From positions 558,001-622,000 of the forward strand of contig NZ_LT703001.1 in NCBI RefSeq assembly GCF_900149705.1: DNA of 64,000 nucleotides, given 5' to 3'. Under the pieces are notes generated by a model, which saw only the letters and a list, made by a program, of their open reading frames with translations, was not told the origin of the DNA and made no database searches. A program made the position numbers and the translations under genes. Origin of the DNA: Sphingorhabdus sp. Alg231-15 (GTDB taxonomy: Bacteria > Pseudomonadota > Alphaproteobacteria > Sphingomonadales > Sphingomonadaceae). Shown here piece by piece: positions 1 to 15,030 of the stretch (position 1 is the stretch's first letter; every line of letters begins with the position of its first letter).

Positions 1-1244
1 TGGCGGCCAAGAAAAGCCTGATAGTTTCGACGGAAATATCTCCGCAATCTAACGATTTTCTAATCACAGATCGCACGCGAGTTAGACAGGTGATCGACAA
101 TTTTGTCAGTAATGCGATTAAATATTCTAGCGATGGGAATATCCATATTGCTGCCAAAACCTTCACCGACCCAACAGGACCTAGCGTCGAATTTGTCGTC
201 TCGGATACTGGCTCTGGTATTTCGAAGGACATCCAAACGCGACTCTTTGATGATTTTGATCGCGGCAATGTTGATAGTGATTTGATAGAGGGCACCGGTT
301 TGGGTTTGTCCATTTGCAAGCGCATTGCAAAAGCCATGGATGGGGAAATCGGGGTTGAGAGCGAGATTGGTAAAGGCAGTAAGTTTTGGATAAAACTGCC
401 AGTTACCATTGGAGATGGGTCGCAAACTGCTGAGGATCGATTGCAAAAACCGAATATCACCGAATTCAATATCGATGATAGAGCGCCAAAACTGCTTGTT
501 GCCGAAGACGTAGAAGCCAATCAAATCGTGCTGGTCTCTTTGTTGGAGAATCTCGGTTGTGAAGCGATAGTAGTCAATGATGGATCAAAGGTGATTGATG
601 CTTTGGACGCAGAAGCCTTTGATGGAATATTCATGGACGTCTGGATGCCAACCAATGGAATGGAGGCTACGAAACAGGTTCGCGCAAACCAAAAGCACAA
701 CATGATTCCCATCTTTGGGGTTACCGCTTTTGCGGCCGATGAAGAGAGGGCAGCGATATTGGCCTCCGGTATGGATGGCGTGATCGCTAAGCCCATAAAT
801 ATCTCCGGATTAACCTACGCATTGGAACAAATATGTGGAACCAAAGGCTCGGTGACCGATGATCATCTGGATGGCTCAGTTCCCGATTTATCCAATCCCG
901 AATATATCGACACTGAAAAGTTCCGAGAACAACTAACTGCCGTTCCTATAGATCGACGGGAGTTGCTGATTGAAGCGGTTGGTGCGGACATCGGGAAATG
1001 GTGCGATAAATTTCAACGCTCCTGGGTCGCTAAAGATCAGGAAGGTGTAAGTGCGGCCCACCATGCGCTTCGGGGTATTTGCAACGGTTTTGGTGCCTAT
1101 TCTCTTTTGGAAAAACTGGAATCAATCCGACAAACTGAATTATTAGGCGACAGCGCTGTGCTTTTGCCGATTGAAAATATTGAACAACGAACAATATCTG
1201 CCCTCCGTCGATCAAGCCAGATGGCCGATCGACGGAGGGATTGA
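1..1244 (+). CDS. Hybrid histidine kinase with receiver and Hpt-like domains (5' end outside window)
   Basis: The reading frame is open from base 3, so the N-terminus (sensor and phospho-acceptor His region) lies outside the window. The visible part begins in a HATPase domain: N-box (RQVIDNFVSNAIKYS), G1 box (DTGSGIS) and G2 box (GTGLGLSIC). A receiver domain follows with an acidic pair (AEDVE) and a phospho-acceptor Asp in FMDVWMP (codon 636-638). The C-terminus resembles an Hpt domain: AHHALRG, candidate phospho-His codon 1062-1064. HATPase-REC-Hpt order implies a multistep phosphorelay. It lies at the edge of the EPS locus and could supply phosphate to the LuxO-like regulator at 12154; that link is inference. 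The kinase assignment is firm, the signal unknown. Confidence 0.9.
   Translation, partial: AAKKSLIVSTEISPQSNDFLITDRTRVRQVIDNFVSNAIKYSSDGNIHIAAKTFTDPTGPSVEFVVSDTGSGISKDIQTRLFDDFDRGNVDSDLIEGTGLGLSICKRIAKAMDGEIGVESEIGKGSKFWIKLPVTIGDGSQTAEDRLQKPNITEFNIDDRAPKLLVAEDVEANQIVLVSLLENLGCEAIVVNDGSKVIDALDAEAFDGIFMDVWMPTNGMEATKQVRANQKHNMIPIFGVTAFAADEERAAILASGMDGVIAKPINISGLTYALEQICGTKGSVTDDHLDGSVPDLSNPEYIDTEKFREQLTAVPIDRRELLIEAVGADIGKWCDKFQRSWVAKDQEGVSAAHHALRGICNGFGAYSLLEKLESIRQTELLGDSAVLLPIENIEQRTISALRRSSQMADRRRD
1201..1239. terminator. Perfect 13-bp inverted repeat at the 3' end of the kinase gene
   Basis: CCCTCCGTCGATC (1201-1213) and GATCGACGGAGGG (1227-1239) are exact reverse complements around a 13-base loop. 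The repeat is inside the last codons of the kinase gene and 20 bases before the stop of the convergent gene. No T-run follows on either strand, so it is not a classical intrinsic terminator; a transcription-blocking or RNA-stabilising hairpin between convergent genes is likely. Confidence 0.55.
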
Positions 1245-1259
1245 AGGAGGGCCCGAGAC

Positions 1260-2720
1260 CTAATAGGCCCCTCTTCCCGATATGACAGCCGGAACTGTCT
1301 GGGTAATAAGTTTGATATCTTTCAGGATCGATTGTTCCTCAAGATATTCCAAATCCATTTCTACTTGCTGTGCAAATGGAATATCGGCTCGACCTGAGAC
1401 CTGCCATGTGCAGGTCAATCCTGGCTTTCCATTTAAGCGACGGCGTTCACGCTGTTCATAACTGAGCACCTCGCAAGGAAGCGCGGGCCGCGGGCCTACA
1501 ACCGACATTTGACCGGTTAGAATATTCAGTATTTGCGGGAGTTCATCCAGCGACGTTCGGCGTATAAATTTTCCAACTTTGGTAATCCGGGGATCATCTT
1601 TCATCTTGAAGCAAACGGAATCGCGATCATTTTGCTCAGTCAATGATGCCTTTCGCTCGTCAGCATTTTTGTACATGGATCGGAATTTCCATATCTTGAA
1701 CGGCTTTCCATCAGCTCCTATTCGGGTTTGTCGGTAGAATGGAGACCCGCGATCCTCCATGGTTATAAATAGACAGATTGCTGCAGCCAACGGGCCCAAA
1801 AGAACAAGTGCTAGCAAAGCAATGGACAAATCCAATGTTCGTTTGGAGGCTGCCGCATATCGCTCGGCATGTCCTCGCGCGACAAAAGCGTGCTTAACGG
1901 CATGAACAATGAACCGAGTGTTACCGATTATATATCGATTGGCTAGTCGGCTTGGTTCCATTGCCAATCGCCACGTCCATTCCATACCCAATTTTCGAAT
2001 AAGAAGCGGCGCCCGCGCAATTTTCCCGGAATAATAGTCGAAGAGGCCGCCTACGCCCAAGATAACAGGTACCTTGATTTGATTGCGATATTTGGCAATC
2101 CATTTTTCCTGCAGTGGAACACCCATTCCGACCAGTAGTATTGAAGCGCCTGAAGCGTTGATCTTCTGGATGATTTCGTCGTCGGTCCCCTTGGCATAGA
2201 AACCATTTTGAGTGCCCGCAAAGCGCAATCCGGAAATTTTGTTCCGCATATTTTTTGCAGCAGTGGATGCTATACCAGGTGCACCACCCAACAGAAAAAT
2301 GGTTTGATTTTTCTGTGCAGCCTGTTCGCATAAATGTGGGAACAGATCTGTACCGTTCAGATTATCTATTTTTCCAGAACCTGAAAGACCGGCGGCCAAC
2401 TTAAGGCCCGATCCATCCGGAAGCAAAATATCTGTTTCCTCAATTATCTTGCTATAATGATCGTCGCGTTGGATTTGATTGACACAATGCGCATTAATAA
2501 AATGAATGATGTTGCGCTCTCCATCAGCCGCTGCATCTACAATATGCGATGCAACTTTGCCCAGATGTCCGTTGGCAAGTGGCAGATTGAATAACGAAGG
2601 CGCTCCGTTCTGATAAAGTCGCGTAGCTAATTCCGTAGCACGTGAACGCCCAATCAAAAGGGGAGAAATTTGTCGACCAAGATTTTGGCGGATGCTTTCT
2701 GCGGATTGATACTGACTCAT
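1260..2720 (-). CDS. Fused GT26 (WecG/TagA/CpsF) glycosyltransferase and initiating sugar-phosphate transferase
   Basis: 486 aa. Residues about 60-265 match the WecG/TagA/CpsF family: LLPDGSGLKLAAGL, LLGGAPGIA, GTQNGFY, and the family's C-terminal signature around GMEWTWRLAMEPSRL. After a linker, residues about 288-486 form a bacterial sugar transferase (WcaJ/ExoY type): one hydrophobic segment (DLSIALLALVLLGPLAAAIC), then KIWKFRSMY, TSLDELPQ, SVVGPRPALP and PGLTCTWQVSGR. The second domain links the first sugar phosphate to undecaprenyl phosphate at the inner membrane; GT26 enzymes usually add the next sugar. One polypeptide may therefore do EPS repeat-unit steps 1 and 2. It is divergent from the flippase operon and preceded by a sigma-54 promoter (2754-2770). 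Confidence 0.92.
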   Translation of the reverse strand: MSQYQSAESIRQNLGRQISPLLIGRSRATELATRLYQNGAPSLFNLPLANGHLGKVASHIVDAAADGERNIIHFINAHCVNQIQRDDHYSKIIEETDILLPDGSGLKLAAGLSGSGKIDNLNGTDLFPHLCEQAAQKNQTIFLLGGAPGIASTAAKNMRNKISGLRFAGTQNGFYAKGTDDEIIQKINASGASILLVGMGVPLQEKWIAKYRNQIKVPVILGVGGLFDYYSGKIARAPLLIRKLGMEWTWRLAMEPSRLANRYIIGNTRFIVHAVKHAFVARGHAERYAAASKRTLDLSIALLALVLLGPLAAAICLFITMEDRGSPFYRQTRIGADGKPFKIWKFRSMYKNADERKASLTEQNDRDSVCFKMKDDPRITKVGKFIRRTSLDELPQILNILTGQMSVVGPRPALPCEVLSYEQRERRRLNGKPGLTCTWQVSGRADIPFAQQVEMDLEYLEEQSILKDIKLITQTVPAVISGRGAY

Positions 2721-2753
2721 AGACTGGCTCCAAATTTGATTTGGATTTCAACC

Positions 2754-2770
2754 CGCATTTCTTGTGCCAG
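2754..2770 (-). promoter_or_regulatory. Sigma-54 promoter of the GT26/sugar transferase gene
   Basis: On the minus strand, CTGGCACAAGAAATGCG has GG-N10-GC spacing and agrees with the TGGCAC-N5-TTGC consensus. Transcription would start near 2743, leaving a leader of about 23 bases. Degenerate TTGCA-N3-TGCAA sites lie about 70-135 bp upstream. Confidence 0.75.
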
Positions 2771-2836
2771 AACCACTTAATCTATATATATCAATTATTT
2801 AATAGGTTACCATTTGATTTTCGTGGCTAGTATCCC

Positions 2837-2889: not shown

Positions 2890-2954
2890 CAGCTGGAACA
2901 AGGTAGATTTTTCGTTAACCGCGATGATGTCCGGAATCGTGGGGGTTTCGAAAA

Positions 2955-2971
2955 CTGGCACAGCAATTGAA
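2955..2971 (+). promoter_or_regulatory. Sigma-54 promoter of the flippase-glycosyltransferase operon
   Basis: CTGGCACAGCAATTGAA has an excellent -24 element (TGGCAC) and a -12 element TTGA in place of TTGC, with correct spacing. Predicted start is near 2982, about 20 bases before the flippase ATG. The enhancer block at 2837-2889 is 70-125 bp upstream. Confidence 0.65.
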
Positions 2972-3002
2972 CTGAAGTAGCCAAGTCATTTGGAAACCAA
3001 CT

Positions 3003-4268
3003 ATGTCAATTGCCGCATCAATTCACGAGAACTCAACCATACAATCGATTTTGCGTGGGTTATTGGCTTATGGGTCTGCCGAGTTATTGAATCGCTTTGT
3101 CCGGTTGCTTGTTGTTATCATCATTGCTCGTCAACTGGTTCCGGAACTGGTTGGTGTCGCAGCGCTTACCCTCAGCCTATTCGAACTCATCCGCGTCTTG
3201 GCCAATATTGGCGTTGGTCAAAAAATAATTGCCACGGACTCCCAATATCTCGATCAAGTTTGCAATTCTGCTTACCGCGTATTTTGGGTTTGGTGCGCGA
3301 TTGTAGCTGGCATACAGCTTTTTGCGGCAGCGCTGTTGTACGGCTTTTTCGATAATTTGGTTGCTGCGCAAATGCTCGCTGCCTTGTCCGGGGTTTACCT
3401 GTTTATGCCTGGCGGACTGGTGCAATGCTTCCGACTTATGCGTGCAAAAAAACTGCCAACAGTAGCGGCAATTGGCGCAACACAAACGATAGTGGATCAT
3501 TTGATAACTTGCGTATTAATCCTTGCTTGGGCCAATCCATGGGCGATTGTCCTACCCAAATTACTCACAGCTCCACTCTGGCTCATCATGATGCGCCGGG
3601 CCAACGCGTGGAAATACAATCCTGCAAAAGGGTACGCACCCTTGAGTTCGATGCTGCAATTTGGTTCAGCGATTTTGATTGCCGATATCTGGCTCGCATT
3701 ACGTAACAACCTTGATAAGCTCATTATCAGCGCCTTGCTTGGCGTTTCAGCTTTGGGCAGCTACTATTTTGCATTCAACGCTGGCATCGGTATTGTTGGC
3801 GCTCTGGCTGCAGCGTTCGGCACCGTTTTGTATCCACATTTATGTGAGGCAAAGTCGGACGGACGACAAAGAGCAACCCTTGGATTAGCAGTAATTTTGG
3901 GATTTGGGATATTCGGATCCCTGACGCTGGTGCAACTTTTGTTCGCTCCGATTTATGTCCCCATCATTTTTGGGGCACATTGGACACATGCTATTCCTCT
4001 GATCCAAGTCCTTTCGACGGCTGCGATACCGATGATGCTGGGCGCGCTGTTGTCAGCATATCTGCGCGCGAGCCAACGGACCTCACTCGATGCTTGGGTC
4101 GGATCAGCAATCTGTCTTTCGGCGCTGGGGATGATGCTAGTCGGCGCACATTCAAATCTATTTTTGGCAGCGATAGGCTGGGTAGTCGGCACCGCCACGG
4201 TGATCACTGCCTATCTGACCATTTCCGCAATTCAATATTTCACAAAACGGGAGTTTTATCATGAATAG
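3003..4268 (+). CDS. Wzx-like polysaccharide flippase (oligosaccharide flippase family)
   Basis: 421 aa, almost wholly hydrophobic with many predicted membrane helices. The N-terminus (LAYGSAELLNRFVRLLVVIIIARQL) is typical of the MATE/MVF-like polysaccharide flippases, as is the later NNLDKLIISALLGVSALGSYY. It should flip undecaprenyl-linked EPS repeat units across the inner membrane. It is first in a four-gene operon with three glycosyltransferases; its stop overlaps the next ATG by 8 bases. Transcription is predicted from the sigma-54 promoter at 2955. Substrate cannot be deduced. Confidence 0.88.
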   Translation: MSIAASIHENSTIQSILRGLLAYGSAELLNRFVRLLVVIIIARQLVPELVGVAALTLSLFELIRVLANIGVGQKIIATDSQYLDQVCNSAYRVFWVWCAIVAGIQLFAAALLYGFFDNLVAAQMLAALSGVYLFMPGGLVQCFRLMRAKKLPTVAAIGATQTIVDHLITCVLILAWANPWAIVLPKLLTAPLWLIMMRRANAWKYNPAKGYAPLSSMLQFGSAILIADIWLALRNNLDKLIISALLGVSALGSYYFAFNAGIGIVGALAAAFGTVLYPHLCEAKSDGRQRATLGLAVILGFGIFGSLTLVQLLFAPIYVPIIFGAHWTHAIPLIQVLSTAAIPMMLGALLSAYLRASQRTSLDAWVGSAICLSALGMMLVGAHSNLFLAAIGWVVGTATVITAYLTISAIQYFTKREFYHE

Positions 4269-5190
4269 TCCGCATTTCTCTGTCATATTACCGGTCTACA
4301 ATGCCTCCAATCAGATCTTGAAAACCATTAGTTCGGTGTTGAACCAAACAGAACGCGATCTGGAATTGATTTTGATCGACGATGGATCAACCGATGATAG
4401 TCTTGCACTGATGCTGGCTTTCGCTTCGGATGATGAGCGGATCAAACTTGTATCGCAGGAAAACAAGGGTGTATCGGCCTCACGAAACCTTGGCCTTGGT
4501 TTGGCAAGAGGAGCATTGGTAGCTTTCATTGATTCCGACGATCTTTGGGCCAACGACAAATTGGCGGTTCACCGCGAGTTACATCAGCAAAATTCAAAAG
4601 CTGCTGCTAGTTACGCGAAGGTCGCATTCATTGATCAACATGCTTCCAATGGTCGCGATGCCAGGACATTTTCTACTGTCAGATCAGACGCGTTATCGGT
4701 TGATCAGATCATTTCAGAAAATCCGGTATGTACTATGTCCAACCTGGTTGTTCGCAATGACATTATTCGAACCATTGGCAATTTCGAGGCGAAAATGTCT
4801 TATGCGGAGGACCAGGAATGGTTGGCGCGTTTGATTGTTCAAGGCCATGTGGTGGTCGGAATTGATCGGTATCTTGTCGACTATCGGCTGAATCCATTGG
4901 GCCTCTCTGCAGATTTGCCGGCGATGTTTGTTGGTTGGAGACAATTGGCAGATCAATATGCGCAAGCAGATCAGATTTCATCGTCCGAAGCCATTTATTG
5001 TCGCTATTTGTCGCGGCGAGCATTGCGTGCTGGAGCACCAGCGAAAGTTGCTCTGGCTTATGCGCTCCAAGGTATGCGTGCCGATCGCGAATCTTTCCTA
5101 GAAGATCAAAGGCGGGGTTGGTTGACCCTAGTTTCAGCCTTCGCTGCATTCCTCATGCCACGCTCAACACGCGTCCATCTCTTTGCCTAG
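4261..5190 (+). CDS. Family 2 glycosyltransferase
   Basis: 309 aa. The first about 110 residues are a GT-A fold: FSVILPVYNASNQI at the start, LILIDDGSTDDS for nucleotide binding, SASRNLGLGLARG and the metal-binding DSDD of AFIDSDDLW. The C-terminal half is variable and presumably sets acceptor specificity. A cytoplasmic enzyme adding one sugar to the EPS repeat unit. The start overlaps the flippase gene by 8 bases (translational coupling). It is a paralogue of the next gene, with the same fold and layout but clearly diverged. Donor sugar unknown. Confidence 0.9.
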   Translation: MNSPHFSVILPVYNASNQILKTISSVLNQTERDLELILIDDGSTDDSLALMLAFASDDERIKLVSQENKGVSASRNLGLGLARGALVAFIDSDDLWANDKLAVHRELHQQNSKAAASYAKVAFIDQHASNGRDARTFSTVRSDALSVDQIISENPVCTMSNLVVRNDIIRTIGNFEAKMSYAEDQEWLARLIVQGHVVVGIDRYLVDYRLNPLGLSADLPAMFVGWRQLADQYAQADQISSSEAIYCRYLSRRALRAGAPAKVALAYALQGMRADRESFLEDQRRGWLTLVSAFAAFLMPRSTRVHLFA

Positions 5191-5214
5191 AAGTCAGTCA
5201 GAAAGGACTGTCCT

Positions 5215-6207
5215 ATGAATTACCCATCCATTTCAGTTGTTATGCCGGTTCATAATGTTGAAAAATTTGTACCAGCGGCCATTGAATCCGTACTCGCTCA
5301 GACAGTCGAAGACTTCGAACTGATCATTGTTGATGATGGCGGTACAGATAAGAGTATCGAAATTTGTGCATCCTACGATGATCCTCGCATTCGTATTGTG
5401 ACACAATCAAATCGAGGTTTGGCTGGCGCACGAAATACCGGAATATTAGAAGCGCGCAGCGAATATATCGCCTTGCTTGATTCCGATGACACCTGGCACC
5501 CAGAGAAACTCGCTCTCCACAAAATTCACTTGGATAACAATCCGCAAGTTGGCGTGAGCTATAGCGGTTCCCGGCTCATGGATAATGATGGAACTCCTCT
5601 TCGACAGATGCAGCGTCCGAAGTTGGCCAAGGTTAGTGCCAGGGATATAATTTTACGCAATCCCGTCGGGAATGGATCGTCACCGGTTATTCGCAAAACC
5701 GCGCTTCACCAGATCGCTTTCTTCAGTCGTGATGAACCCAATAGAATTTGCTTTTTTGACGAGACATTCAGGCAATCCGAAGACATCGAACTTTGGATCC
5801 GGATGGCTCTAACCAACGGTTTCAAGTTCGAGGGCATTGATGGTCTGCTAACAAATTATCGCATTGGCTCGGGTGGGTTGTCGTCCAACATTGCCGCCCA
5901 ATATGAAAGCTGGAACCGAGTGATTGCAAAGACAAAACAAAACGCGCCGGAATTTGTTGAACAGATCGAGAATGAAGCACGTGCTTATCAGCTGCGATAT
6001 TTGGCCCGCCGCGCTGTCCAGATGGGAGATGGCGCATTTGCGCTAAGCTTATTGAAGGATTCTGCCAAAAAATCATCGGCGCCTCTAGTAAAGGAACCGA
6101 TCAGGTCAGTTTTAACATTCCTCGCGGCAACAACCGCACGGTATTTGCCATCCAATATGGTTGTAAAACTTGCCCATTCATGGACCGGTGGAAAGGTATT
6201 GGCATGA
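5215..6207 (+). CDS. Family 2 glycosyltransferase
   Basis: 330 aa. GT-A motifs in order: ISVVMPVHNVEKF, LIIVDDGGTDKS, LAGARNTGILEARS and LLDSDDTWHPEK (the DxD metal site). It follows the first GT2 gene by 24 bases and has a ribosome-binding site (AGAAAGGA) upstream. A probable paralogue of that gene, likely adding another residue of the repeat unit. Its stop overlaps the next start in an ATGA arrangement. Donor and acceptor sugars are not inferable. Confidence 0.9.
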   Translation: MNYPSISVVMPVHNVEKFVPAAIESVLAQTVEDFELIIVDDGGTDKSIEICASYDDPRIRIVTQSNRGLAGARNTGILEARSEYIALLDSDDTWHPEKLALHKIHLDNNPQVGVSYSGSRLMDNDGTPLRQMQRPKLAKVSARDIILRNPVGNGSSPVIRKTALHQIAFFSRDEPNRICFFDETFRQSEDIELWIRMALTNGFKFEGIDGLLTNYRIGSGGLSSNIAAQYESWNRVIAKTKQNAPEFVEQIENEARAYQLRYLARRAVQMGDGAFALSLLKDSAKKSSAPLVKEPIRSVLTFLAATTARYLPSNMVVKLAHSWTGGKVLA

Positions 6208-7232
6208 AAGATAAAACGCAGATCGTCCATTTGCTCGATGACGTCGCCCTTGGCGGTGTGACTAAGAATCTCGAACTGTTTCAACATCCCGCCTTCGGTC
6301 ACCGGTTCAAAACGATCGTCGAAGAAGCACACCCTGTTTGGAGTATTGCACCGCAATTTCCTGATGCTGGAGCAATTGTTGTACACTTTTCGATAAGCTG
6401 GAATACCCTGCCCTTTTTGTATTCCTTGGCGTCGCGGAACAGTTCTGCGCAATTGATATTGGTTCACCACAGCTATTCGAGGGAGTGGGAACAGCTTCAA
6501 GTACCAGATCCGACCCGTTTTCGTTCCATGCTAAAACTAGCACATAAGATTTTTGATCAAGTCATTTGTGTTTCCAATGAGCAAGCATTGTGGTTCGCCG
6601 AAGCAACTGGACTCAAGTCTTCAAAACGGCAAGTCATTTACCCTTGGAGCGAAATGAACAATCTCGTGAATATCGCCCAGCCTCATTTTTCACAACATAA
6701 CCCCATCACTATTGGTGCTTACGGTCGATTTGTCCGCGAAAAGGGCTTTGACAGATTAATCGAAGCGGTAAACAAATTGGGCGCACAGAATGACATAAAG
6801 CTCAAGATTGGTGGGTTTGGTCCAGAAGAAGCCGAACTGAGACGGTTAGCCGCCGGTAACGCTAACATTTCCTTTTATGGCAAAGTAACCGACATTGATC
6901 ACTATTTGGAACAGTGCGATATCATTGCGGTGCCTTCACGATTTGAGGCTTATGGCTTGGTAGCTACAGAAGCGCGTTGTGCCGCTCGGCCAATTTTGGT
7001 TTCTAATGTTGGCGGATTGCCTGAACAAATTGGAGAAGCCGGTATCTCTGTCGATTTTGACGATATGGAAGCTATTGGCCGAATGCTGCGCAATATCAGA
7101 CATTTGCCGTTGGTGAACATGTCTGTGGCGGCTCGCGAAAACTGTCTGCGAGTAACCGAACAACGAGTTGCAGATTGGATTGAAGTATTCGAAGCGCTGT
7201 TGGGGAATGAATGCCTAGAGGCCGCTGCTTAA
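6204..7232 (+). CDS. Family 4 (GT-B) glycosyltransferase
   Basis: 342 aa from the ATG at 6204, which overlaps the previous stop (ATGA); an in-frame upstream ATG at 6180 lies inside the previous gene and is less likely. The C-terminal half has GT4 features: IGAYGRFVREKGFDRLIEA, LKIGGFGPEEAELRRLA, the E-x7-E region in PSRFEAYGLVATEARC, and PILVSNVGGLPEQI. The N-terminal domain is variable. Last gene of the flippase operon, ahead of a strong hairpin at 7266. Confidence 0.9.
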   Translation: MKDKTQIVHLLDDVALGGVTKNLELFQHPAFGHRFKTIVEEAHPVWSIAPQFPDAGAIVVHFSISWNTLPFLYSLASRNSSAQLILVHHSYSREWEQLQVPDPTRFRSMLKLAHKIFDQVICVSNEQALWFAEATGLKSSKRQVIYPWSEMNNLVNIAQPHFSQHNPITIGAYGRFVREKGFDRLIEAVNKLGAQNDIKLKIGGFGPEEAELRRLAAGNANISFYGKVTDIDHYLEQCDIIAVPSRFEAYGLVATEARCAARPILVSNVGGLPEQIGEAGISVDFDDMEAIGRMLRNIRHLPLVNMSVAARENCLRVTEQRVADWIEVFEALLGNECLEAAA

Positions 7233-7493: not shown

Positions 7494-8798
7494 TTACCTG
7501 CTTACGTTCGGGCCTGTTGTAGACTCGTCGCTTATATCGGTGCGTGATTGCAGTGCTTTTCCCAATAGGACCAGCGCTGGCCAATAGAGATAAGCAAGCG
7601 ATTCCAAATTTTCGCCAAAGCTGTACATTGTTAGCAACGCGACAATAGCAAACCCGATGCAGCCTACTGAAGATACCAAAGCTTTGCGAAACAAGTTTGT
7701 AGCGCTGGTGATCATTGGCACAGCTAAGGCGATCAAACCCAGTATGCCCTTCACAAATAAAAGCCCGTACCAACTATGGTGACTGCCTATCGACATATAT
7801 TCGACAAGATGTGGGCCGCGTTCAACAATTCCGTGTCCGAACCAGTAAGCCTCAGCTTCCCATCTTTCTAGGGCGATACGGCCTAATGTTTCTCTTACAC
7901 GGGTGGAGCCGGCACGGGCACTTGAAAATTCGGATTGCGCGGCACTGAATGCCTCAAGTATGTCGATTGCAAACCAACCGAAGATCAGAACGATTGGGAG
8001 CGCTAGAAACCATATCGCCGGCATCGTGACTTGTTTAAATAAAAATGGTATTGGACCAATGAGTAGCAATCCCACGAGAGCCAGGCGAGATTGTGACATT
8101 AGAATGATTGCCAAGGCACCGGCTACACCCCAGCTTTTCCACGTACGATCCTTTTCCTGAAGTGCGCATAAAAAGTAGACCAGGCCAATCATTCCGGCTG
8201 CTGGTGACCAAGGTGCGAAGAACTGCCATCGCGGTATCCCAGACCCTGGTTCAAGTGTATATAGGATGGTGGCAAAATATTCTGATCCCGAACCACCTAC
8301 AATTTTCAAAGGTGACACCCACAAAGTTTCCGGAAGCCCAACCAGGGGGGCGGCAATAAAAATTGGAAGGAGAAAAATGGTATATTTTGCTGAACGGCAA
8401 ATCGCTCGGTAAACAATTTTTGCCCTGATCGGCAAAACTGCACCAGCGAAAATGAACAAGGCGATCAACATCCAGCCTTTTGCCCATCCGATTGATGACT
8501 TAGCCATAGTAGCCATACCCAAGCTAAAGTTTAAATGGCCAACAACGAGAATGACCAACATTAAACCCATGGAGGCCAGCCACAATTGAACGGAAAAATT
8601 GGGAACCGCTAATCGCTTGGTTTCAGGGAGAGCCGGTGCAATAAAGTAAAAATAAATTGCCTGAAATGCCAGCGCGCACCCCAATATTGGTCCGACAATA
8701 TAGAGTCCACCCAACAACCATAACAGCCATGTGGCTACTATGGTGAAGTAGACTAAACGTTCGGAGCTATTTTGCGGATTATGGTCTGTCTGAACCAT
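7494..8798 (-). CDS. Wzy/O-antigen ligase-like polysaccharide polymerase
   Basis: About 434 aa from the ATG at 8798, preceded by AGGG; an upstream ATG at 8828 is possible. The gene overlaps the preceding one by 46 bases in a tightly coupled operon. The protein is hydrophobic with about ten or more membrane segments and a large periplasmic loop in the second half (around RVRETLGRIALERWEAE and GPHLVEYMSIGSHHSWYG), the pattern of the Wzy_C/O-antigen ligase family. With a flippase and chain-length protein nearby, polymerisation of flipped repeat units is the likely role. Ligase and polymerase cannot be separated by sequence alone. Confidence 0.82.
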   Translation of the reverse strand: MVQTDHNPQNSSERLVYFTIVATWLLWLLGGLYIVGPILGCALAFQAIYFYFIAPALPETKRLAVPNFSVQLWLASMGLMLVILVVGHLNFSLGMATMAKSSIGWAKGWMLIALFIFAGAVLPIRAKIVYRAICRSAKYTIFLLPIFIAAPLVGLPETLWVSPLKIVGGSGSEYFATILYTLEPGSGIPRWQFFAPWSPAAGMIGLVYFLCALQEKDRTWKSWGVAGALAIILMSQSRLALVGLLLIGPIPFLFKQVTMPAIWFLALPIVLIFGWFAIDILEAFSAAQSEFSSARAGSTRVRETLGRIALERWEAEAYWFGHGIVERGPHLVEYMSIGSHHSWYGLLFVKGILGLIALAVPMITSATNLFRKALVSSVGCIGFAIVALLTMYSFGENLESLAYLYWPALVLLGKALQSRTDISDESTTGPNVSR

Positions 8799-10150
8799 AG
8801 CAGCCCTAAAGCAACAAGGATGATGCATGTGCCCGCCAGAGCACCAGCGAATGCAAGCAACAATGATGGACTGGAAGATTTTTGTGGAACCGAAGGTTGC
8901 TCCAGCGTTTGTACCAGCGGATAGGATGCAAAAGGATCTTGTTTGTTCGTATCGATGCGAGCCAGTGCAGACGAAAAGACCGCTTCCGCAACACGGTGAT
9001 CGCGAACCAGATCCGCGAGAACGGACGCTTGTTTTACCAATTCGCCGCTTTTAGCAGATTGGTTTGCAATGTCTTTGCGGATCACCGCTAGACTTGCCCG
9101 TGCACCAGCACTTTGCGAATTGGCTATCACCATGTTTTGCATCAAATTGGATCGGCCGTCTGCAACAGCAATGTCAACATTTCTCATAATTGCACGTGCG
9201 CTAAGGCCTGTTACCGACTGGCCGCGCTTTACCAAAGCTGCCTTTAGTTGATCTCTTTCCGTAACGACCTGTACAAGAGCACCATGATTTTCCCCTAGTG
9301 TGGCACCCTTTTCATGAGCTGAGACTTCCAGTTTCGCAAAACGATCCGCAAGCTGCTGAAAAACCGGATCTGATCGCAATCGCATTGCAGAGTTTGCTCC
9401 GTCGACGTCTTTACCGAGAATGGATGAAAACCTCTGCGATTCAGCAGACTTCTGCTTCACGGCCAGGCGTGCTTCCCGTTCCTGCTGACGCAGCGAATCC
9501 ATATTCGCTATGCGGGTGTTAAACTGGTCCAGCGAAACGAGCCCGGTTGTCGCCTGAAAGTCGAGCAATGCTTGTTGGGTTGAACGAACTTTCTTCTCCA
9601 ATTGAACAAGGTTTCTAACATCAGACCGCTCTCGCGTTTCTGCTTCATTTTTGCGCAGTCCGTCGAGTTGTTCTAAAAAACTTTCCTTTAAAGCAATCGC
9701 ACGCTTGTGCGCTTCTTTGCTATTTCGCCCTACAATTTCAACCTGGATTAAATTTGTCTGGTCGATCAATTTTACAACGGGAACCGGGAACCGGTCGGCA
9801 TGATCACCCGATTTTTCAGCACTTTCACGCAACGTAATATCGGTCATGAGGAGGCGTTTATAGTTTTCAGTCGGGCTAATGGTTGAGCTTGAAAACGCAG
9901 AAGAGACGGACGACTGTGCTTGCCCGATGCTTTCGACATTTAGTGAGCTGCCAGCACCTGAACCAGGAAGGATCAGGGTGAATTTGCTACGGTATTGTTC
10001 CGGCGCTAACACAAGGTAAACCATCGTGATCAGCCAGATCACCGCGATCCAAATTGCCGCAATATGCAGATAGCGTTTTTGTCGTCTCAGCAGCGGGCGG
10101 CGGCGCTTAAATTTCAGCCACAACCGCTCGGGCAGACCGGGTCTCTCCAT
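8753..10150 (-). CDS. Polysaccharide co-polymerase (Wzz/GumC-like chain-length protein), no kinase domain
   Basis: About 465 aa from ATG 10150 (AGGA just upstream); a TTG at 10171 overlapping the previous stop would add 7 residues. One membrane segment near the N-terminus (LHIAAIWIAVIWLITMVYLV), a long periplasmic part with coiled-coil segments (around residues 180-290), and a second membrane segment near the C-terminus (LLLAFAGALAGTCIILVALG). This is the polysaccharide co-polymerase layout. The chain ends soon after the second helix, so the cytoplasmic tyrosine-kinase domain of Wzc is absent. It should control EPS chain length and bridge to the outer-membrane exporter encoded upstream. Confidence 0.85.
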   Translation of the reverse strand: MERPGLPERLWLKFKRRRPLLRRQKRYLHIAAIWIAVIWLITMVYLVLAPEQYRSKFTLILPGSGAGSSLNVESIGQAQSSVSSAFSSSTISPTENYKRLLMTDITLRESAEKSGDHADRFPVPVVKLIDQTNLIQVEIVGRNSKEAHKRAIALKESFLEQLDGLRKNEAETRERSDVRNLVQLEKKVRSTQQALLDFQATTGLVSLDQFNTRIANMDSLRQQEREARLAVKQKSAESQRFSSILGKDVDGANSAMRLRSDPVFQQLADRFAKLEVSAHEKGATLGENHGALVQVVTERDQLKAALVKRGQSVTGLSARAIMRNVDIAVADGRSNLMQNMVIANSQSAGARASLAVIRKDIANQSAKSGELVKQASVLADLVRDHRVAEAVFSSALARIDTNKQDPFASYPLVQTLEQPSVPQKSSSPSLLLAFAGALAGTCIILVALGLLWFRQTIIRKIAPNV

Positions 10151-10167
10151 TGTATCCTGCTTCACGA

Positions 10168-11352
10168 TCAATCTACATTTTTCAGGAGAAAATATGGGGA
10201 AGCTGTCTCGCCAACCAGGCTGATGACATCCCTTACGTTCATGGCAAAACTATCATAGCAGGCAAGACTGTCTCCTGGCATCAAATAGGGATCTCTCTGA
10301 TCACGATTGTCCTGACGAACAAGCTTCTCCACGGAACGCTGGATCACGACCGACTGGCCATTAATTGGGTTTCGCGACATCAATACCACTTTGCGGGCCG
10401 CATTCATCGCCGATCCCCCTACACAGTTTGCTGATACCATCGCCTGAGACAGCCGGGTTCCATAAGGAAGACTGGTTGTTTCCCTTCCGATAGAGGAAGA
10501 GGCATTGCTGGCTGCCGGACGAGAAAGATTGGACATGAACACGCGAATACCAGGCGCGGTTACTCGTGACGGTTTCACCAATTCACTTTGAAAACAATTT
10601 GTCGATCCCACGATAATACGATCATTCGAAGAGAGAGAAATATCGTCAATAAGATCTCCATCAATAGCACCGGTTAAATCCACACGGGACCAACTATTTC
10701 CACTGACGACATAGACAGCCGACAGATCCGCATCCGGTCGAACGCCGCCTGCCGCTCGGATTGCGGCCGTTAGTGACCGGGTGATATTGCGATCTCCAGA
10801 ATTGTTATTGTCGAGATGAACGCCCCTTAATTCTGCCGAGCGTTGGCCGACCCGCACCATCCCCGGTTGGAACACCGCGCCATTAACGGCGACGCTAACC
10901 CCACCCAATTCCAGAAGCTGCAATCGAACGCTTCCACGAAGTCCGCGGATAAGGCCGTTTGCCACAAGAGTGCGAGAAATGGTTTGCTCGGCTTCGACAA
11001 TCGATAGACCAACCAAACTAATGGAATGTCGACCATCAAGCGTAACTGATCCATTGCCAGCCAAAACATATATTCTTGAAAGGCTCTCTTCATCACCAGC
11101 AATTTTGAGTTGAATCCGGTCACCAGATGAAAGCAGATCTGGTTTTCGGATCAGCACTTCCGATGCTATTTGTCTATGCGGCAATGACGATGAAGGCAGA
11201 GCTCCGCTAATGCAGCGAGGCGCCGAATTGCTATGCTCGACCTGTTGTTGGGGAGCATATTGGCTAGTATCCAGGTTGGCAGGGCGCTCCATCGTGGCGC
11301 AACCGCCTGCAAGCGCAGCGCAAAAGCCAATAACCATCGTTTTTCTGAACAT
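10168..11352 (-). CDS. Wza-like polysaccharide export lipoprotein
   Basis: 394 aa from ATG 11352; a longer frame to 11427 would include the sigma-54 promoter and is rejected. A lipoprotein signal (MVIGFCAALAGGC) gives an acylated Cys near residue 18. A polysaccharide export domain starts at DLLSSGDRIQLKIAG, followed by SLBB-type segments (VNGAVFQPGMVRVG). It should form the outer-membrane channel for the EPS. First gene of the leftward operon with the co-polymerase and polymerase genes. The start of the co-polymerase gene overlaps or abuts its stop. Confidence 0.9.
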   Translation of the reverse strand: MFRKTMVIGFCAALAGGCATMERPANLDTSQYAPQQQVEHSNSAPRCISGALPSSSLPHRQIASEVLIRKPDLLSSGDRIQLKIAGDEESLSRIYVLAGNGSVTLDGRHSISLVGLSIVEAEQTISRTLVANGLIRGLRGSVRLQLLELGGVSVAVNGAVFQPGMVRVGQRSAELRGVHLDNNNSGDRNITRSLTAAIRAAGGVRPDADLSAVYVVSGNSWSRVDLTGAIDGDLIDDISLSSNDRIIVGSTNCFQSELVKPSRVTAPGIRVFMSNLSRPAASNASSSIGRETTSLPYGTRLSQAMVSANCVGGSAMNAARKVVLMSRNPINGQSVVIQRSVEKLVRQDNRDQRDPYLMPGDSLACYDSFAMNVRDVISLVGETASPYFLLKNVD

Positions 11353-11387: not shown

Positions 11388-11404
11388 TGCAATGGGCGTG
11401 CCAA
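11388..11404 (-). promoter_or_regulatory. Sigma-54 promoter of the EPS export operon
   Basis: On the minus strand TTGGCACGCCCATTGCA is an essentially perfect -24/-12 promoter (GG-N10-GC). Predicted start near 11376, about 24 bases before the export gene ATG. Three TTGCA-N3-TGCAA sites lie 70-130 bp upstream. Confidence 0.88.
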
Positions 11405-11467: not shown

Positions 11468-11525
11468 TTGCAATTTGCAAAGACTTTTGTCGCATATTGC
11501 AAATAACCTACATTGCAAAATGCAA
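11468..11525. promoter_or_regulatory. Shared enhancer block: three TTGCA-N3-TGCAA palindromes
   Basis: TTGCAATTTGCAA (11468-11480), TCGCATATTGCAA (11490-11502) and TTGCAAAATGCAA (11513-11525); starts are 22 and 23 bp apart, about two helical turns. Two are perfect in both arms, one has a single mismatch. The form equals the site described for LuxO (TTGCA-WWW-TGCAA). The block sits between divergent sigma-54 promoters at 11388-11404 and 11565-11581 at distances usual for enhancer-bound activators. The likely binder is the LuxO-like protein encoded at 12154. Confidence 0.85.
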
Positions 11526-11564: not shown

Positions 11565-11581
11565 TTGGCATAGTTGATGCT
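11565..11581 (+). promoter_or_regulatory. Sigma-54 promoter of the H-NOX/response-regulator operon
   Basis: TTGGCATAGTTGATGCT has correct GG-N10-GC spacing, with TTGGCA at -24 and ATGC at -12. Predicted start near 11593. It overlaps possible start codons at 11574 and 11577, which favours the ATG at 11619 as the true start. The regulator would activate its own operon. Confidence 0.78.
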
Positions 11582-11618: not shown

Positions 11619-12149
11619 ATGAAAGGCATAATTTTTACCGAACTGGTCCGGTTCATGGAGAAGGTGAAATCGGCAGATTTTGCTGATGCAGTTATTTCTG
11701 GATCAGAATTGCCCAATGATGGCGCATTTACATCTGTTGGTAATTATCCTTCAGAATATGCTTTGAATATGGTTGCGGAAGCCTCGGCACAATCAGGTAT
11801 TGAAGCCGCTGAACTTTGCCGTCTTTATGGGAAATATCTCTACGGCCGTTTCACTATATTATATCCGCATATCATGGAGTCCTATCGCACAGCGGAATCG
11901 CTTTTAACCCATGTTGGAAGTCACATTCACAACGAAGTCTGCATTCTTTATCCCGACGCCCAACCGCCGCAGATCACGGCGCAAGAATCCGCTGAAAAAA
12001 CCATAATTTCTTATCAATCCCATCGGCCCATGGCTGCAATCGCCCAGGGCCTCGTTCAAGGGTGTATGGAACATTATGATGATCGCCGTGCTCTAGAGTG
12101 GAGCATAAGCGAGGATGGCAAGTCGGCAACATTTACAATTACGGGATAA
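11619..12149 (+). CDS. H-NOX haem-based nitric oxide sensor
   Basis: 176 aa from ATG 11619. A full-length stand-alone H-NOX (HNOB) domain: N-terminal MKGIIFTELVRFME; the proximal haem ligand His104 in IHNEVCILYPDA; and the haem-propionate motif Y132-x-S134-x-R136 (YQSHR). These positions match numbering in characterised H-NOX proteins (His102-104, Tyr131/Ser133/Arg135). No Tyr is seen near residue 140, where O2-binding forms have a distal Tyr, so NO selectivity is expected by family knowledge. Cytoplasmic. The gene is 4 bases before the LuxO-like regulator gene. Stand-alone H-NOX proteins usually control a kinase or cyclic-di-GMP enzyme in trans; the kinase at 1-1244 is a candidate. Confidence 0.93.
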   Translation: MKGIIFTELVRFMEKVKSADFADAVISGSELPNDGAFTSVGNYPSEYALNMVAEASAQSGIEAAELCRLYGKYLYGRFTILYPHIMESYRTAESLLTHVGSHIHNEVCILYPDAQPPQITAQESAEKTIISYQSHRPMAAIAQGLVQGCMEHYDDRRALEWSISEDGKSATFTITG

Positions 12150-12153
12150 TCAA

Positions 12154-13587
12154 ATGGCCAATCATAAGATATTGATAATTGAAGATATTGCTTCGCTTTC
12201 CATGGCCTATGCTGGTCATTTGGAGTCAGCCGGATTTGAAAGCATCATTGTCGACAATTTGGCCGATGCCAATTCTCAGTTGCAAGAAAACGGAACTCAA
12301 TTTTCTGCCGTGTTGCTCGACTTACAACTGCCTGATGGCAATGGGCTGGATTGGCTTGCGCAGAATCCTGATATTGTTCAGGACATACCAATTATCGTTG
12401 CAACAGCTGATGGATCAATAAACCGCGCAATTGATGCCATGCGACTGGGCGCTTACGATTTCATGGTCAAACCACTGGCGCCAGGTCGTCTGGTCACTGT
12501 GACAAAGGGTGCGGCCGAAACGAAACGAGAGGCTAAGCCCACTGCCGCTCAACATTCTAACGAAAATACCAATAATGACGCGTTAGGCGGATTCATTGGC
12601 GCCAGTCAGCCTATGCAATCAATTTACAACCAAATTAGGAATGTAGCCAAATCAAAAGCTACAATTTTCATCACGGGAGAGAGCGGCACCGGCAAAGAGG
12701 TTTGCGCTGATGCCATCCACAAATCAGGACCCCGCGCCAAGAAACCATTTGTTGCGATTAACTGCGGTGCAATTCCGGAAGACCTTCTTGAATCCGAGCT
12801 GTTTGGCCATTTAAAAGGATCATTTACCGGAGCGATCTCGGATCGCGTCGGCGCTGTTCAGGCTGCCCATGGCGGTACATTGTTCCTCGATGAGATATGC
12901 GAAATGGAGCTGAAGCTTCAGGTGAAATTACTGCGGTTTTTACAGACTGGAACGGTTCAGCGCGTCGGTGCGACTAAGGCAGAAAATGTGGATGTTCGGA
13001 TCATCTGCGCAACCAACCGCACCCCTTCCGTCGAAGTACAGCACGGGCGATTTCGCGAAGATCTTTATTACCGATTGGCCGTTGTTCCAATTCATTTACC
13101 AGCACTTAGAGAAAGAGGTAATGACATTACACTATTGGCAAATCGCTTTCTTGATCGGTTTGCGAACGAAGAAGGCAAAAGTTTTTCACCGCTTAATGTT
13201 CAACTTGCTCAAAAATTCGAACAGCATTCCTGGCCAGGCAATGTGCGTGAGTTGCAAAATTTAATGCGCCGTGCGGCAGTGATGTTTGCTGGTCCAGAAC
13301 TAGATGAAACTATTGTCTCAGAATTCACTGCTGCTTCTCCGCAAGTGCAATCTATCAATTTGCAGGATCAAAATACCGAGATCCCGTCAAATCAATTTTC
13401 CGCGAATCAGGGAATTGATCAGTTCGACAATATGACACTCGATCAAGTGGAGCGATTGTTAGTCGACCGCGCAGTACAAAATTGTGGGGGCAGCCTGACT
13501 AAAGCCGCGAAAAAACTGGGTGTAAGTCCATCGACTCTGTATCGAAAAAAGGAAAAATGGGCCTCCAGCTTGGCGGCTGATTGCTGA
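12154..13587 (+). CDS. LuxO-like sigma-54-dependent response regulator
   Basis: 477 aa from ATG 12154; an in-frame ATG at 12115 lies inside the H-NOX gene. Receiver domain (residues 1-120) with acidic pair E10/D11, phospho-acceptor D56 and K106. AAA+ domain (about 146-375): Walker A GESGTGKE (175-182), sigma-54 contact loop GSFTGA (222-227, usually GAFTGA), Walker B region FLDEICEM and RFREDLYYRL. A Fis-type helix-turn-helix at the C-terminus ends VSPSTLYRKKEKW. As I recall Vibrio LuxO, the AAA+ and HTH segments are closely alike, including LDE-I/L-CEM and SPST-x-YRKK. It probably binds the TTGCA-N3-TGCAA blocks and activates the EPS promoters and its own operon. Confidence 0.93.
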   Translation: MANHKILIIEDIASLSMAYAGHLESAGFESIIVDNLADANSQLQENGTQFSAVLLDLQLPDGNGLDWLAQNPDIVQDIPIIVATADGSINRAIDAMRLGAYDFMVKPLAPGRLVTVTKGAAETKREAKPTAAQHSNENTNNDALGGFIGASQPMQSIYNQIRNVAKSKATIFITGESGTGKEVCADAIHKSGPRAKKPFVAINCGAIPEDLLESELFGHLKGSFTGAISDRVGAVQAAHGGTLFLDEICEMELKLQVKLLRFLQTGTVQRVGATKAENVDVRIICATNRTPSVEVQHGRFREDLYYRLAVVPIHLPALRERGNDITLLANRFLDRFANEEGKSFSPLNVQLAQKFEQHSWPGNVRELQNLMRRAAVMFAGPELDETIVSEFTAASPQVQSINLQDQNTEIPSNQFSANQGIDQFDNMTLDQVERLLVDRAVQNCGGSLTKAAKKLGVSPSTLYRKKEKWASSLAADC

Positions 13588-13621
13588 CATTATTTGGCTA
13601 ACTCATTACTGACAAATAATG

Positions 13622-13646
13622 ACAGCAAGGCAAAACACTTTGCTGT
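13622..13646. terminator. Hairpin between the regulator and PAP2 genes
   Basis: ACAGCAAGG and CTTTGCTGT pair over 9 bp (one G-U) around a 7-base loop, followed by moderately T-rich sequence. It lies 34 bases after the regulator stop, between convergent genes. A weak intrinsic terminator. Confidence 0.5.
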
Positions 13647-13676
13647 GGTTGTTACTCTTTCAAGCTTCCGATATGC

Positions 13677-14387
13677 TCAGATAAATTTCAACAATTGCGC
13701 AAATGCACGCACATCTTCCAACATTGTTGCGACTTGATACAAAAACAAGAAAAACACCGGATAGAACCACGCAGGGTGTAAATAGGACCAGTGAATTCCC
13801 CATTGCATCGGTTTAGAATTTTGGAATAATTTGATGCCCGCTACAGCAAATAGGAAGCCAATAGCTGCCCCAACCAATATGTCGCTGGCGTAATGCAACC
13901 CAAGATAGATACGCGGAAAAGCGATAAAAATAGTGCAATAAACAAAAGCAAAAATTCCTAGCCTCCGCGATACCATGTATATGGCGCCCACTATCGCGAA
14001 AAATAGGATAGCGTGATCGCTTGGAAACGAGCTGCTGCTCATCATGTCTGAACTGAGTAGTTGCAGGCGTTCGGGCACCTGCAGGTCGAATGCCTCTTCT
14101 AGGAAAGGCCGCAGTCTATAATCTGTGATACGAGACAAAATCAGGGCGAATGTCTCCGCAAAAACGCTGGCCACAAGAGCTGCCATGATAGCAGCTCTGT
14201 TTTGAAACTGGGTCTTGCTTTCGGCTATCCAAAACTGGCCAGGTTTAGCGATCCAAATATAAAGTAGAATTGCTACCAGCGCCCCGCCCTTAACAAGGTG
14301 GCTTGCGGAAATGGTAAGAACGGCTTCGTCTAGCAATTCAAAGCTGCCCAGCAGCTCTCCGAACCATAATTTAATAGTCTGATCCAA
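13677..14387 (-). CDS. PAP2-family membrane phosphatase (undecaprenyl-pyrophosphate phosphatase-like)
   Basis: 236 aa, about six membrane helices. PAP2 signature motifs in order: an Arg-rich first motif ending RLRPF (around residue 93), SSFPSDHA with the catalytic-site His, and RIYLGLHYASDILVGAAIG. The family removes phosphate from lipid phosphates or pyrophosphates at the membrane. In this regulon the natural role would be recycling the undecaprenyl carrier released by EPS polymerisation, but a lipid phosphatase role is possible. The gene has its own sigma-54 promoter (14469-14485), shared in style with the EPS operons. Confidence 0.88.
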   Translation of the reverse strand: MDQTIKLWFGELLGSFELLDEAVLTISASHLVKGGALVAILLYIWIAKPGQFWIAESKTQFQNRAAIMAALVASVFAETFALILSRITDYRLRPFLEEAFDLQVPERLQLLSSDMMSSSSFPSDHAILFFAIVGAIYMVSRRLGIFAFVYCTIFIAFPRIYLGLHYASDILVGAAIGFLFAVAGIKLFQNSKPMQWGIHWSYLHPAWFYPVFFLFLYQVATMLEDVRAFAQLLKFI

Positions 14388-14468
14388 TTGGGACTCCCAT
14401 CTTAGCTTACAGCATCAATCATAGTCTCCTTGGATTGGAAGACGTTGACCGATAGTGGTGACTGGAGA

Positions 14469-14485
14469 GGCAATGCTCATGCCAA
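14469..14485 (-). promoter_or_regulatory. Sigma-54 promoter of the PAP2 gene
   Basis: Minus-strand TTGGCATGAGCATTGCC fits the -24/-12 consensus with exact GG-N10-GC spacing. Predicted start near 14457, giving a leader of about 70 bases. Confidence 0.82.
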
Positions 14486-14558
14486 TTAGAAAAGTGTACT
14501 TTCTCAGTAGTTTAAAAAAGGAACAGAATTGAATAAATTCAGATTGCAATAAATTATG

Positions 14559-14589
14559 TTGCATTTTGCAAATAAAATGCACTTTGCAA
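14559..14589. promoter_or_regulatory. Shared enhancer block: two TTGCA-N3-TGCAA palindromes
   Basis: TTGCATTTTGCAA (14559-14571, perfect arms) and ATGCACTTTGCAA (14577-14589, one mismatch), starts 18 bp apart. A left half-site TTGCA occurs at 14544. The block lies about 75-120 bp from the sigma-54 promoter on either side, as at 11468-11525. Confidence 0.8.
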
Positions 14590-14655
14590 GTAATCGTTTA
14601 ATGGTTAATTATATGATCACAATATAAACATCTGATATATTATAATATATAGTTT

Positions 14656-14672
14656 ATGGCATATAGATTGCT
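14656..14672 (+). promoter_or_regulatory. Sigma-54 promoter of the small unknown gene
   Basis: ATGGCATATAGATTGCT has TGGCA at -24, TTGCT at -12 and GG-N10-GC spacing. Predicted start near 14683, about 48 bases before the ATG at 14731. Confidence 0.75.
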
Positions 14673-14730
14673 GATTACGATATCAGATCGTGAGATCTAG
14701 AATTTAACTCGCAGATATCGGAAGACAGCT

Positions 14731-15030
14731 ATGCCAGACTCTTGCTTTTATTCACAATCCAACATTGTTCAGCAAATTAGTGCCATAAAACGGTACAAAT
14801 ATACAATCGATCCAGATGCATTGGATCAAATTAGAGTAGAAAAAAAGCGAACCGGAGTGGGAACATCAAAACTCATTCGTTCGAACTTTCATATTTGCCC
14901 CCCGGAATTATCTGCAGAGATGATCGATAATTGGCTGTCTGGAAGAACCAGAAAGGCATATTGGGAACACGCAAATTGGGTTCTGGAACGATATTCTGCT
15001 TTGCCCACTTTATGCCCCATAACGGCTTGA
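14731..15030 (+). CDS. Small unknown protein, possible DNA-binding/adaptor member of the EPS regulon
   Basis: 99 aa; not assigned to a named family. Basic central part (IRVEKKRTGVGTSKLIRS) followed by LSAEMIDNWLSGRTRKA, a pattern resembling XRE-like helix-turn-helix proteins in which the last helix pairs with DNA. No signal peptide or membrane segment. The start ATG 14731 is supported by the upstream sigma-54 promoter. Transcribed divergently from the PAP2 gene off the same enhancer block, so it is probably co-regulated with EPS. It might be a regulator or antagonist; function is not established. Confidence 0.65.
   Translation: MPDSCFYSQSNIVQQISAIKRYKYTIDPDALDQIRVEKKRTGVGTSKLIRSNFHICPPELSAEMIDNWLSGRTRKAYWEHANWVLERYSALPTLCPITA

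Follow-up and report, generated by a model that had tools for sequence, protein, structure and literature searches.

Sphingorhabdus sp. Alg231-15 carries, within about 17 kb of one chromosome of its 3.6-Mb genome, what we consider quite probably a cassette that wires the sensing of nitric oxide (NO) to the synthesis of exopolysaccharide (EPS) by sigma-54 transcription, through an H-NOX protein, a histidine kinase and a LuxO-like regulator. The whole stretch analysed, called the window here, is 64,000 nucleotides long (positions 558001-622000 of contig NZ_LT703001.1), and coordinates are those of the window unless a locus or contig is named. Composition, tRNA genes and motifs were scanned over all of it, and the rest of the analysis covers about its first 23 kb. 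The 17 kb contain the sensor, the kinase and the regulator as well as the matrix genes with operator and promoter, and point to a self-contained circuit through which NO could raise or lower slime production. The parts, their conserved order, their co-occurrence in related genomes, the promoter and box motifs, the phosphorylation residues and an rpoN gene in the genome are read directly from the sequence.

An EPS block of probable Wzx/Wzy type adjoins the pair formed by H-NOX and regulator, and the hybrid kinase stands at the far end of the block. To the left of H-NOX, and divergent from it, are genes for Wza-like, Wzc-like and Wzy-like proteins. Beyond the Wzy-like gene, on the other strand, come three glycosyltransferases and a flippase, followed by a WecG/Bac_transf fusion and then by the 756-aa kinase.

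The sensor and the regulator

The stand-alone H-NOX (11619-12149, forward strand, 176 aa) is the only one in the genome. It matches Pfam HNOB with 98.7 bits (cut-off 25.5) and contains, as the preliminary description of this DNA had claimed, both the proximal haem ligand His104 and the YxSxR motif (Y132, S134 and R136). Among solved chains 6ocv comes closest (E 1e-25), and the haem histidine aligns. The TTG at 11574 falls within a predicted promoter, so the ATG at 11619 (MKGIIF) is the likely start of the gene. In an alignment of 42 H-NOX proteins of the same subtype, His104 is kept in 39 and YxSxR in 41, and position 141, which we take to correspond to the distal Tyr140 of O2-binding H-NOX, is I, V or L in 41.

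The retained haem ligand and YxSxR motif, together with the lack of Tyr at the presumed distal position in 41 of 42 proteins, argue against a signal other than NO, such as redox state, oxygen, haem or zinc, for which the cassette would then be the EPS switch. We regard such a signal as unlikely. In its favour are the conservation of Cys67 (37/42), His98 (38/42) and His102 (39/42), and also the redox and zinc effects on the V. cholerae H-NOX and the existence of H-NOX groups that have no haem histidine (PMC8738867). His98 and His102 lie near the haem ligand and might be a mark of this H-NOX subtype.

Four bases separate the H-NOX stop codon from the start of the regulator gene (12154-13587, forward strand), so that the pair is indeed as tight as previously described. 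The regulator comprises a receiver, a sigma-54 AAA+ domain and a Fis-type helix-turn-helix (Pfam), its phospho-acceptor is Asp56, and its GAFTGA-type loop reads GSFTGA. Among the 88 NCBIfam models listed for it LuxO comes first with 523.3 bits, and because the equivalog cut-off of that model (800 bits) is missed we name the protein LuxO-like only. LuxO is also the closest of the solved proteins, with 404.8 bits vs 281.7 for the top non-LuxO protein, a comparison that excludes the DNA-binding domain since the solved LuxO chains stop before it. Asp56 is retained, and all phosphorylation residues are intact, in 40 of 41 regulators, the sole exception being that of genome G221, which is discussed below.

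Predicted promoters and operators

The preliminary description proposed the polysaccharide genes as direct targets of the regulator. It contained neither sigma-54 promoters nor LuxO boxes, nor the second control region shared by a PAP2 phosphatase gene and a 99-aa open reading frame (ORF). All elements and boxes given here are predictions from sequence, made with the exact patterns TGGCAYN5TTGC for sigma-54 and TTGCA-N3-TGCAA for the box; the published consensus is TTGCA-N3-TGCAA for LuxO sites and YTGGCACG-N4-TTGCWNN for sigma-54 (PMC3352281). A LuxO-type operator accompanied by a -24/-12 promoter is predicted at the locus. Between the Wza-like and H-NOX genes, an exact sigma-54 element, TGGCACGCCCATTGC, lies 37 bp before the Wza ATG (11389-11403, reverse strand), and an element with one mismatch, TGGCATAGTTGATGC, faces H-NOX (11566-11580, forward strand). 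Three boxes stand between them: TTGCAATTTGCAA (11468-11480) and TTGCAAAATGCAA (11513-11525) are exact, and TCGCATATTGCAA (11490-11502) has one mismatch. A distance of about 22 bp is a frequent spacing between boxes. Toward the WecG/Bac_transf gene (2755-2769, reverse strand) and toward the Wzx gene (2956-2970, forward strand) we predict sigma-54 -24/-12 elements with one mismatch each. The idea of direct targets is supported by these predicted sigma-54 promoters and LuxO-type boxes, which lie immediately before EPS genes.

A second divergent control region, at 14388-15030, has two boxes between two exact sigma-54 elements that face the PAP2 gene and the 99-aa ORF. The elements are TGGCATGAGCATTGC (14470-14484, reverse strand, toward PAP2) and TGGCATATAGATTGC (14657-14671, forward strand, toward the ORF), and the boxes are TTGCATTTTGCAA (14559-14571, exact) and one at 14577-14589 with one mismatch. 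The three exact 13-mers of the window are identical to sites in V. cholerae LuxO peaks from chromatin immunoprecipitation sequencing: that at 11468 has the letters of the qrr2/qrr4 sites, that at 11513 those of the qrr1 site and that at 14559 those of the qrr3 site (PMC10328515). Genome-wide there are nine exact boxes, three of them at the locus, and none of the reversed pattern; exact sigma-54 elements number 35 vs 8 for the reversed pattern, and three of them are at the locus (before Wza, PAP2 and the 99-aa ORF).

The same motifs recur in related genomes. Comparison of 32 Wza-to-H-NOX regions (median 288 bp) with dinucleotide shuffles as background gave a sigma-54 element toward H-NOX in 31 (1.70 in shuffles), one toward Wza in 32 (1.49), a LuxO-type box in 30 (1.65), and both divergent elements together with a box in 29 (0.01). 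In real sequence of the same contexts cut into 288-bp tiles, with these regions included, the motifs occur in 4.2, 4.5 and 2.4% of tiles, and all three in 14 of 5251. The WecG/Bac_transf-to-Wzx regions (n=33) show both elements in 30 (0.11 in shuffles), a box in 24 (1.52) and all three in 22 (0.00).

A wide regulon based on sigma-54 elements and LuxO boxes was considered and rejected: within 400 bp of the other six exact boxes of the genome there is no exact sigma-54 element, and only two of these boxes have one with a single mismatch. One exact box (L127, G000:C1 2938360) lies between divergent ORFs, with a one-mismatch box 34 bp further on and a one-mismatch sigma-54 element 204 bp away, and is a weak candidate for an extra target.

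Conservation and co-occurrence

The samples were 32 genomes of the genus and 397 of the family, 417 different genomes in total. In a scan of named genomes the nearest relatives were only two, Sphingorhabdus sp. 109, which carries the cassette with an H-NOX 76% identical to that of the window, and an uncultured Sphingomonadaceae bacterium. H-NOX is present in 6/32 genus genomes and 60/397 family genomes, and it splits into two sets: the subtype of the window, with at least 37% identity (42 genomes from 21 genera), and the rest, with at most 32% or no match. The preliminary description had named conservation of the neighbourhood in related sphingomonads as a check on its proposal, and the neighbourhood proves conserved. 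All 22 loci fetched on both sides share one order (KIN-like kinase, WecG/Bac_transf, Wzx, three glycosyltransferases, Wzy, Wzc, Wza, H-NOX, regulator), and 10 further loci, whose sequence was fetched without the kinase side, have the order EPS, H-NOX, regulator. The cassette parts are present in rearranged form in G252 and G048, and the EPS block is absent or a remnant in eight loci of the subtype (G169, G034, G412, G043, G122, G063, G154 and G228).

The regulator follows this H-NOX closely. Within the genus it is found (E 1e-100) in exactly the six genomes that have H-NOX. In the family, regulator scores reach at least 435 bits in 37 genomes, then comes the partial protein of G228, and then paralogs with at most 326 bits. 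The regulator occurs in 36/39 genomes with the H-NOX subtype vs 1/358 without it; in other words, 36 of the 397 genomes have both, three have the H-NOX subtype only (G063, G154, G228), one has the regulator only (G221) and 357 have neither. Fisher values for this co-occurrence overstate its significance, as genomes of relatives are no independent samples. The Wzy-like marker is in 32/397 genomes, accompanied by the regulator in all 32 and by the H-NOX subtype of the window in 31, and neither regulator nor Wzy was found in the 21 family genomes with only the other H-NOX type. A chance neighbourhood is ruled out by the conserved order, the motifs in the control regions and these co-occurrence counts.

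Could H-NOX be a co-transcribed passenger, without a role in an EPS control exerted by the regulator? We think this very unlikely, given the counts of 36 genomes with both genes vs three and one with a single one, and an association between H-NOX and cassette that spans 21 genera. It would fit the weak correlation of H-NOX divergence with that of the other genes (rho 0.19-0.39 between H-NOX and the cassette, vs 0.65-0.86 between regulator and EPS genes; such distance correlations include shared species history and are a rough guide only). Genome G221 bears on both sides. It keeps the EPS genes, the regulator, a LuxO box and the Wza-directed sigma-54 element (L121 14700-16368), with H-NOX missing between Wza and the regulator, no PF07700 match anywhere in the genome, and KIN absent from the 20 kb fetched. 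Its regulator has Ala at the phospho-acceptor position 56 and Asp instead of Thr84. Sensor and phosphorylation site are lost together in this one case, a single event, and this joint loss speaks against the passenger role. G221 is a natural case in which regulator, operator and EPS genes persist after that loss.

Some loci of the subtype differ in content. H-NOX, KIN-like kinases and the regulator are present in L117, L110, L072 and L062, and the 19-20 kb fetched there contain no EPS genes. In G154 (L116) and G228 (L123) the cassette seems to be in decay: the genes for H-NOX and regulator look broken or reduced to fragments, and most of the EPS genes have been lost.

Among class genomes outside the family, LuxO-like regulators (E 1e-95) are found in 59/289, a count of 61 matches minus the genome of the window and one family member. 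Twenty of these loci were inspected with their flanks and had H-NOX in 0/20, KIN-like genes in 6 and EPS-type genes in 2. Because none of the 20 had H-NOX nearby, the arrangement of H-NOX with EPS genes looks confined to this family, as far as sampled. Within the same genus, G031 has H-NOX, regulator and Wzy only 53-57% identical to those of the window, and in G095, from another genus, the identities are 73, 68 and 59%, respectively. These values, and presence in 6/32 genus genomes, suggest that the history of the cassette was one of transfer or repeated loss.

The hybrid kinase and the proposed circuit

The window begins inside the gene of the hybrid histidine kinase, called KIN here, whose C-terminal part is at 3-1244 (forward strand); the whole protein of 756 aa is encoded at G000:C1 556974-559244 and starts 1 kb left of the window. 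HisKA, HATPase and receiver domains, three features of an ArcB-type HK-REC-Hpt hybrid kinase, are above the Pfam cut-off, and a PAS domain is sub-threshold. The earlier proposal of a kinase with receiver and Hpt domains holds for the receiver; the Hpt part comes from relatives. The tail contains H-x-L-R-G, its His is invariant in 18 chosen KIN-type C-termini, 15 of these match Pfam Hpt, and a profile of the C-termini finds 7c1i, an Hpt-type histidine kinase chain (E 7e-10). A sigma-54 promoter for the kinase was rejected as a candidate: the 692 bp 5' of KIN hold one element with two mismatches and no box at up to two mismatches. Just 5' of the kinase, in the genome of the window and in G029, there is a gene that we name tandem-PilZ-like by eye (L002:10607-11281).

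We infer a circuit whose steps run from haem and NO binding, through contact between H-NOX and kinase, phosphotransfer and DNA binding, to the sign of the response. The earlier proposal that NO changes phosphorylation of the regulator and thereby switches EPS is supported in part, by the computed evidence. H-NOX would bind haem and NO and alter the activity of the kinase with receiver and Hpt at the other end of the cassette. Phosphate would pass from the kinase to its own receiver, to its own Hpt and on to Asp56 of the LuxO-like regulator. Once phosphorylated, the regulator would bind the paired TTGCA-N3-TGCAA boxes between the divergent promoters and, with RpoN, activate the export/polymerase operon in one direction and its own hnoX-regulator operon in the other, with the glycosyltransferase/flippase promoters and PAP2 as probable further targets. 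If KIN behaves like the kinases of V. fischeri and Shewanella, which NO-bound H-NOX inhibits (PMC8738867, PMC12369376), NO would inhibit KIN and lower EPS. The sign of the effect cannot be assumed, because in V. harveyi NO at low concentration raises biofilm (PMC3759921).

Several observations weigh against this circuit. Besides the regulator score below the LuxO cut-off and the low divergence correlations of H-NOX, the WecG/Bac_transf-Wzx region of the window itself has no box at up to one mismatch, and the H-NOX of G048 has Asn in place of His104. The weakest link is the kinase, hybrid kinases being common. The tail of the window's own KIN is unmatched by Pfam Hpt at E 0.05, and its structure model, made without an alignment, is poor (pLDDT 55, the predicted local confidence score). 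Among the 22 full loci, KIN is at least 42% identical in 8, and in 14 there are KIN-like genes of only 24-37% identity. As a control, contexts of the other H-NOX type gave KIN-like matches in 7/17 (25-28% over 167-308 aa, shorter), and for this reason the weaker KIN-like matches alone prove little.

One might then suppose that H-NOX targets the regulator without an intermediate, or targets another kinase, so that the gene pair of H-NOX and regulator forms a two-protein NO switch and KIN serves another input. H-NOX and regulator are the closest pair, four bases apart, with KIN 10 kb away; KIN is poorly conserved in 14/22 full loci; and the contexts of G228 and of G122, where the contig begins immediately before, have H-NOX and regulator with no KIN-like match. 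We nevertheless judge this improbable. All phosphorylation residues are kept in 40/41 regulators, and a KIN-like gene or fragments of one adjoin H-NOX in 8/10 subtype loci that lack the standard order. The clearest case is G252, where a KIN of 45% identity directly precedes H-NOX and the EPS block has moved to the other side; the gene also adjoins H-NOX in G048, G043, G169, G034, G412 and G063, and fragments do so in G154. In G063 there is a KIN-like gene with H-NOX and no regulator. Moreover, the characterised H-NOX proteins tabulated in the literature pair with kinases or with diguanylate cyclase/phosphodiesterase enzymes (PMC8738867). The circuit through the kinase is the one that we prefer.

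Comparison with known systems

Biofilm formation is common among sphingomonads. In many bacteria NO either disperses biofilm or promotes it, and several of the described H-NOX routes go via cyclic di-GMP or quorum sensing, where causes are difficult to tell from effects (PMC8738867). Here the path from NO to matrix could be tested promoter by promoter in a sphingomonad, because all parts lie in about 17 kb and recur across genera. The novelty claimed in the preliminary description has to be restricted: a literature search limited to open-licence papers found none on a sphingomonad locus of H-NOX, EPS and LuxO-like genes, but the same logic, with scattered genes, is already published for V. fischeri (PMC12369376).

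The logic of the cassette resembles the V. fischeri HnoX-HahK-SypF/LuxU-SypG-syp pathway, of which it would be a compact variant. There, an NO sensor inhibits a hybrid kinase, and phosphate passes through an Hpt to a sigma-54 activator that drives a polysaccharide locus directly (PMC12369376). In addition, SypG sites in the V. fischeri qrr1 region overlap perfect TTGCAWWWTGCAA LuxO sites (PMC10162802). In V. fischeri, hnoX shares its operon with the kinase gene, and SypF is the meeting point of several kinases (PMC12369376); in the cassette described here hnoX shares an operon with the regulator gene. Unlike in V. fischeri, the kinase carries its own putative Hpt, hnoX adjoins the EPS genes, sensor and regulator stand behind the regulator's own predicted promoter, and the class of the phylum is another one.

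The V. harveyi H-NOX/HqsK-LuxU-LuxO relay likewise has an H-NOX, a kinase, an Hpt and LuxO with TTGCA-N3-TGCAA sites, but NO enters that quorum relay upstream of LuxR (PMC3759921), whereas in our case the boxes are directly at protein-coding EPS genes. In the HnoX-HnoK systems of Shewanella oneidensis and V. cholerae, H-NOX also works with a kinase, and the Shewanella factor HnoC feeds back on the hno regulon; their output is cyclic di-GMP turnover (PMC8738867), in contrast to the apparent output of EPS transcription here. The Sphingomonas promonan EPS cluster is similar in its Wza, EpsF-type, WecG and Wzx genes and has tyrosine kinase and AAA genes that are not seen here; the text of its description does not contain the words 'H-NOX', 'nitric' or 'sigma' (PMC11340318).

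A Vibrio-type LuxO operator is apparently used directly on polysaccharide genes in Alphaproteobacteria. More tentatively, as an idea that we would put somewhat below even chances, the cassette may be a transferable NO-to-EPS module in which the cell that makes matrix also makes its own NO off-switch, with switch-like, self-arming control and a LuxO-type operator on polysaccharide genes outside vibrios. Control by NO would be self-arming since, from a single divergent region, the regulator seems to activate its own operon with hnoX as well as the EPS operon. If this is true, LuxO-type regulators also govern polysaccharide directly outside vibrios through an identical 13-bp operator, and the role of LuxO with quorum small RNAs may be a later specialisation.

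Polysaccharide genes and neighbouring features

The flanking genes for EPS export, polymerase, flippase and glycosyltransferases named in the preliminary description are present, with unequal family matches: within this putative Wzx/Wzy-dependent set the sugar-phosphate transferase and the flippase are above the Pfam cut-offs, Wza is below, Wzc is weak and Wzy has no match. The WecG/TagA glycosyltransferase fused to a Bac_transf sugar-phosphate transferase is at 1260-2720 (reverse strand) and the Wzx-type flippase (Polysacc_synt_3) at 3003-4268 (forward strand). The three glycosyltransferases, assigned to their family by eye and kept in order in relatives, occupy 4261-7232 on the forward strand (4261-5190, 5215-6207 and 6180-7232). 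On the reverse strand lie the Wzy-like polymerase (7494-8828), a good marker of the cassette, the Wzc/EpsF-like chain-length protein (8753-10171) and the Wza-like export protein (10168-11352, SLBB_2/Poly_export below cut-off). Pfam gives no match at E 0.001 for the Wzy-like and Wzc-like proteins; their names come from gene order and hydrophobicity, to which weak NCBIfam EpsF matches add in the case of Wzc.

Downstream of the regulator, a PAP2-family phosphatase (Pfam; 13677-14387, reverse strand) is a possible second target. The 99-aa ORF (14731-15030, forward strand) has no match in Pfam, NCBIfam, PHROGs or phage searches. It is 86% identical to an ORF at the equivalent place in G029; within the genus its matches are strong in G029 and also, away from the cassette, in G031, and weak in G002, G010 and G026.

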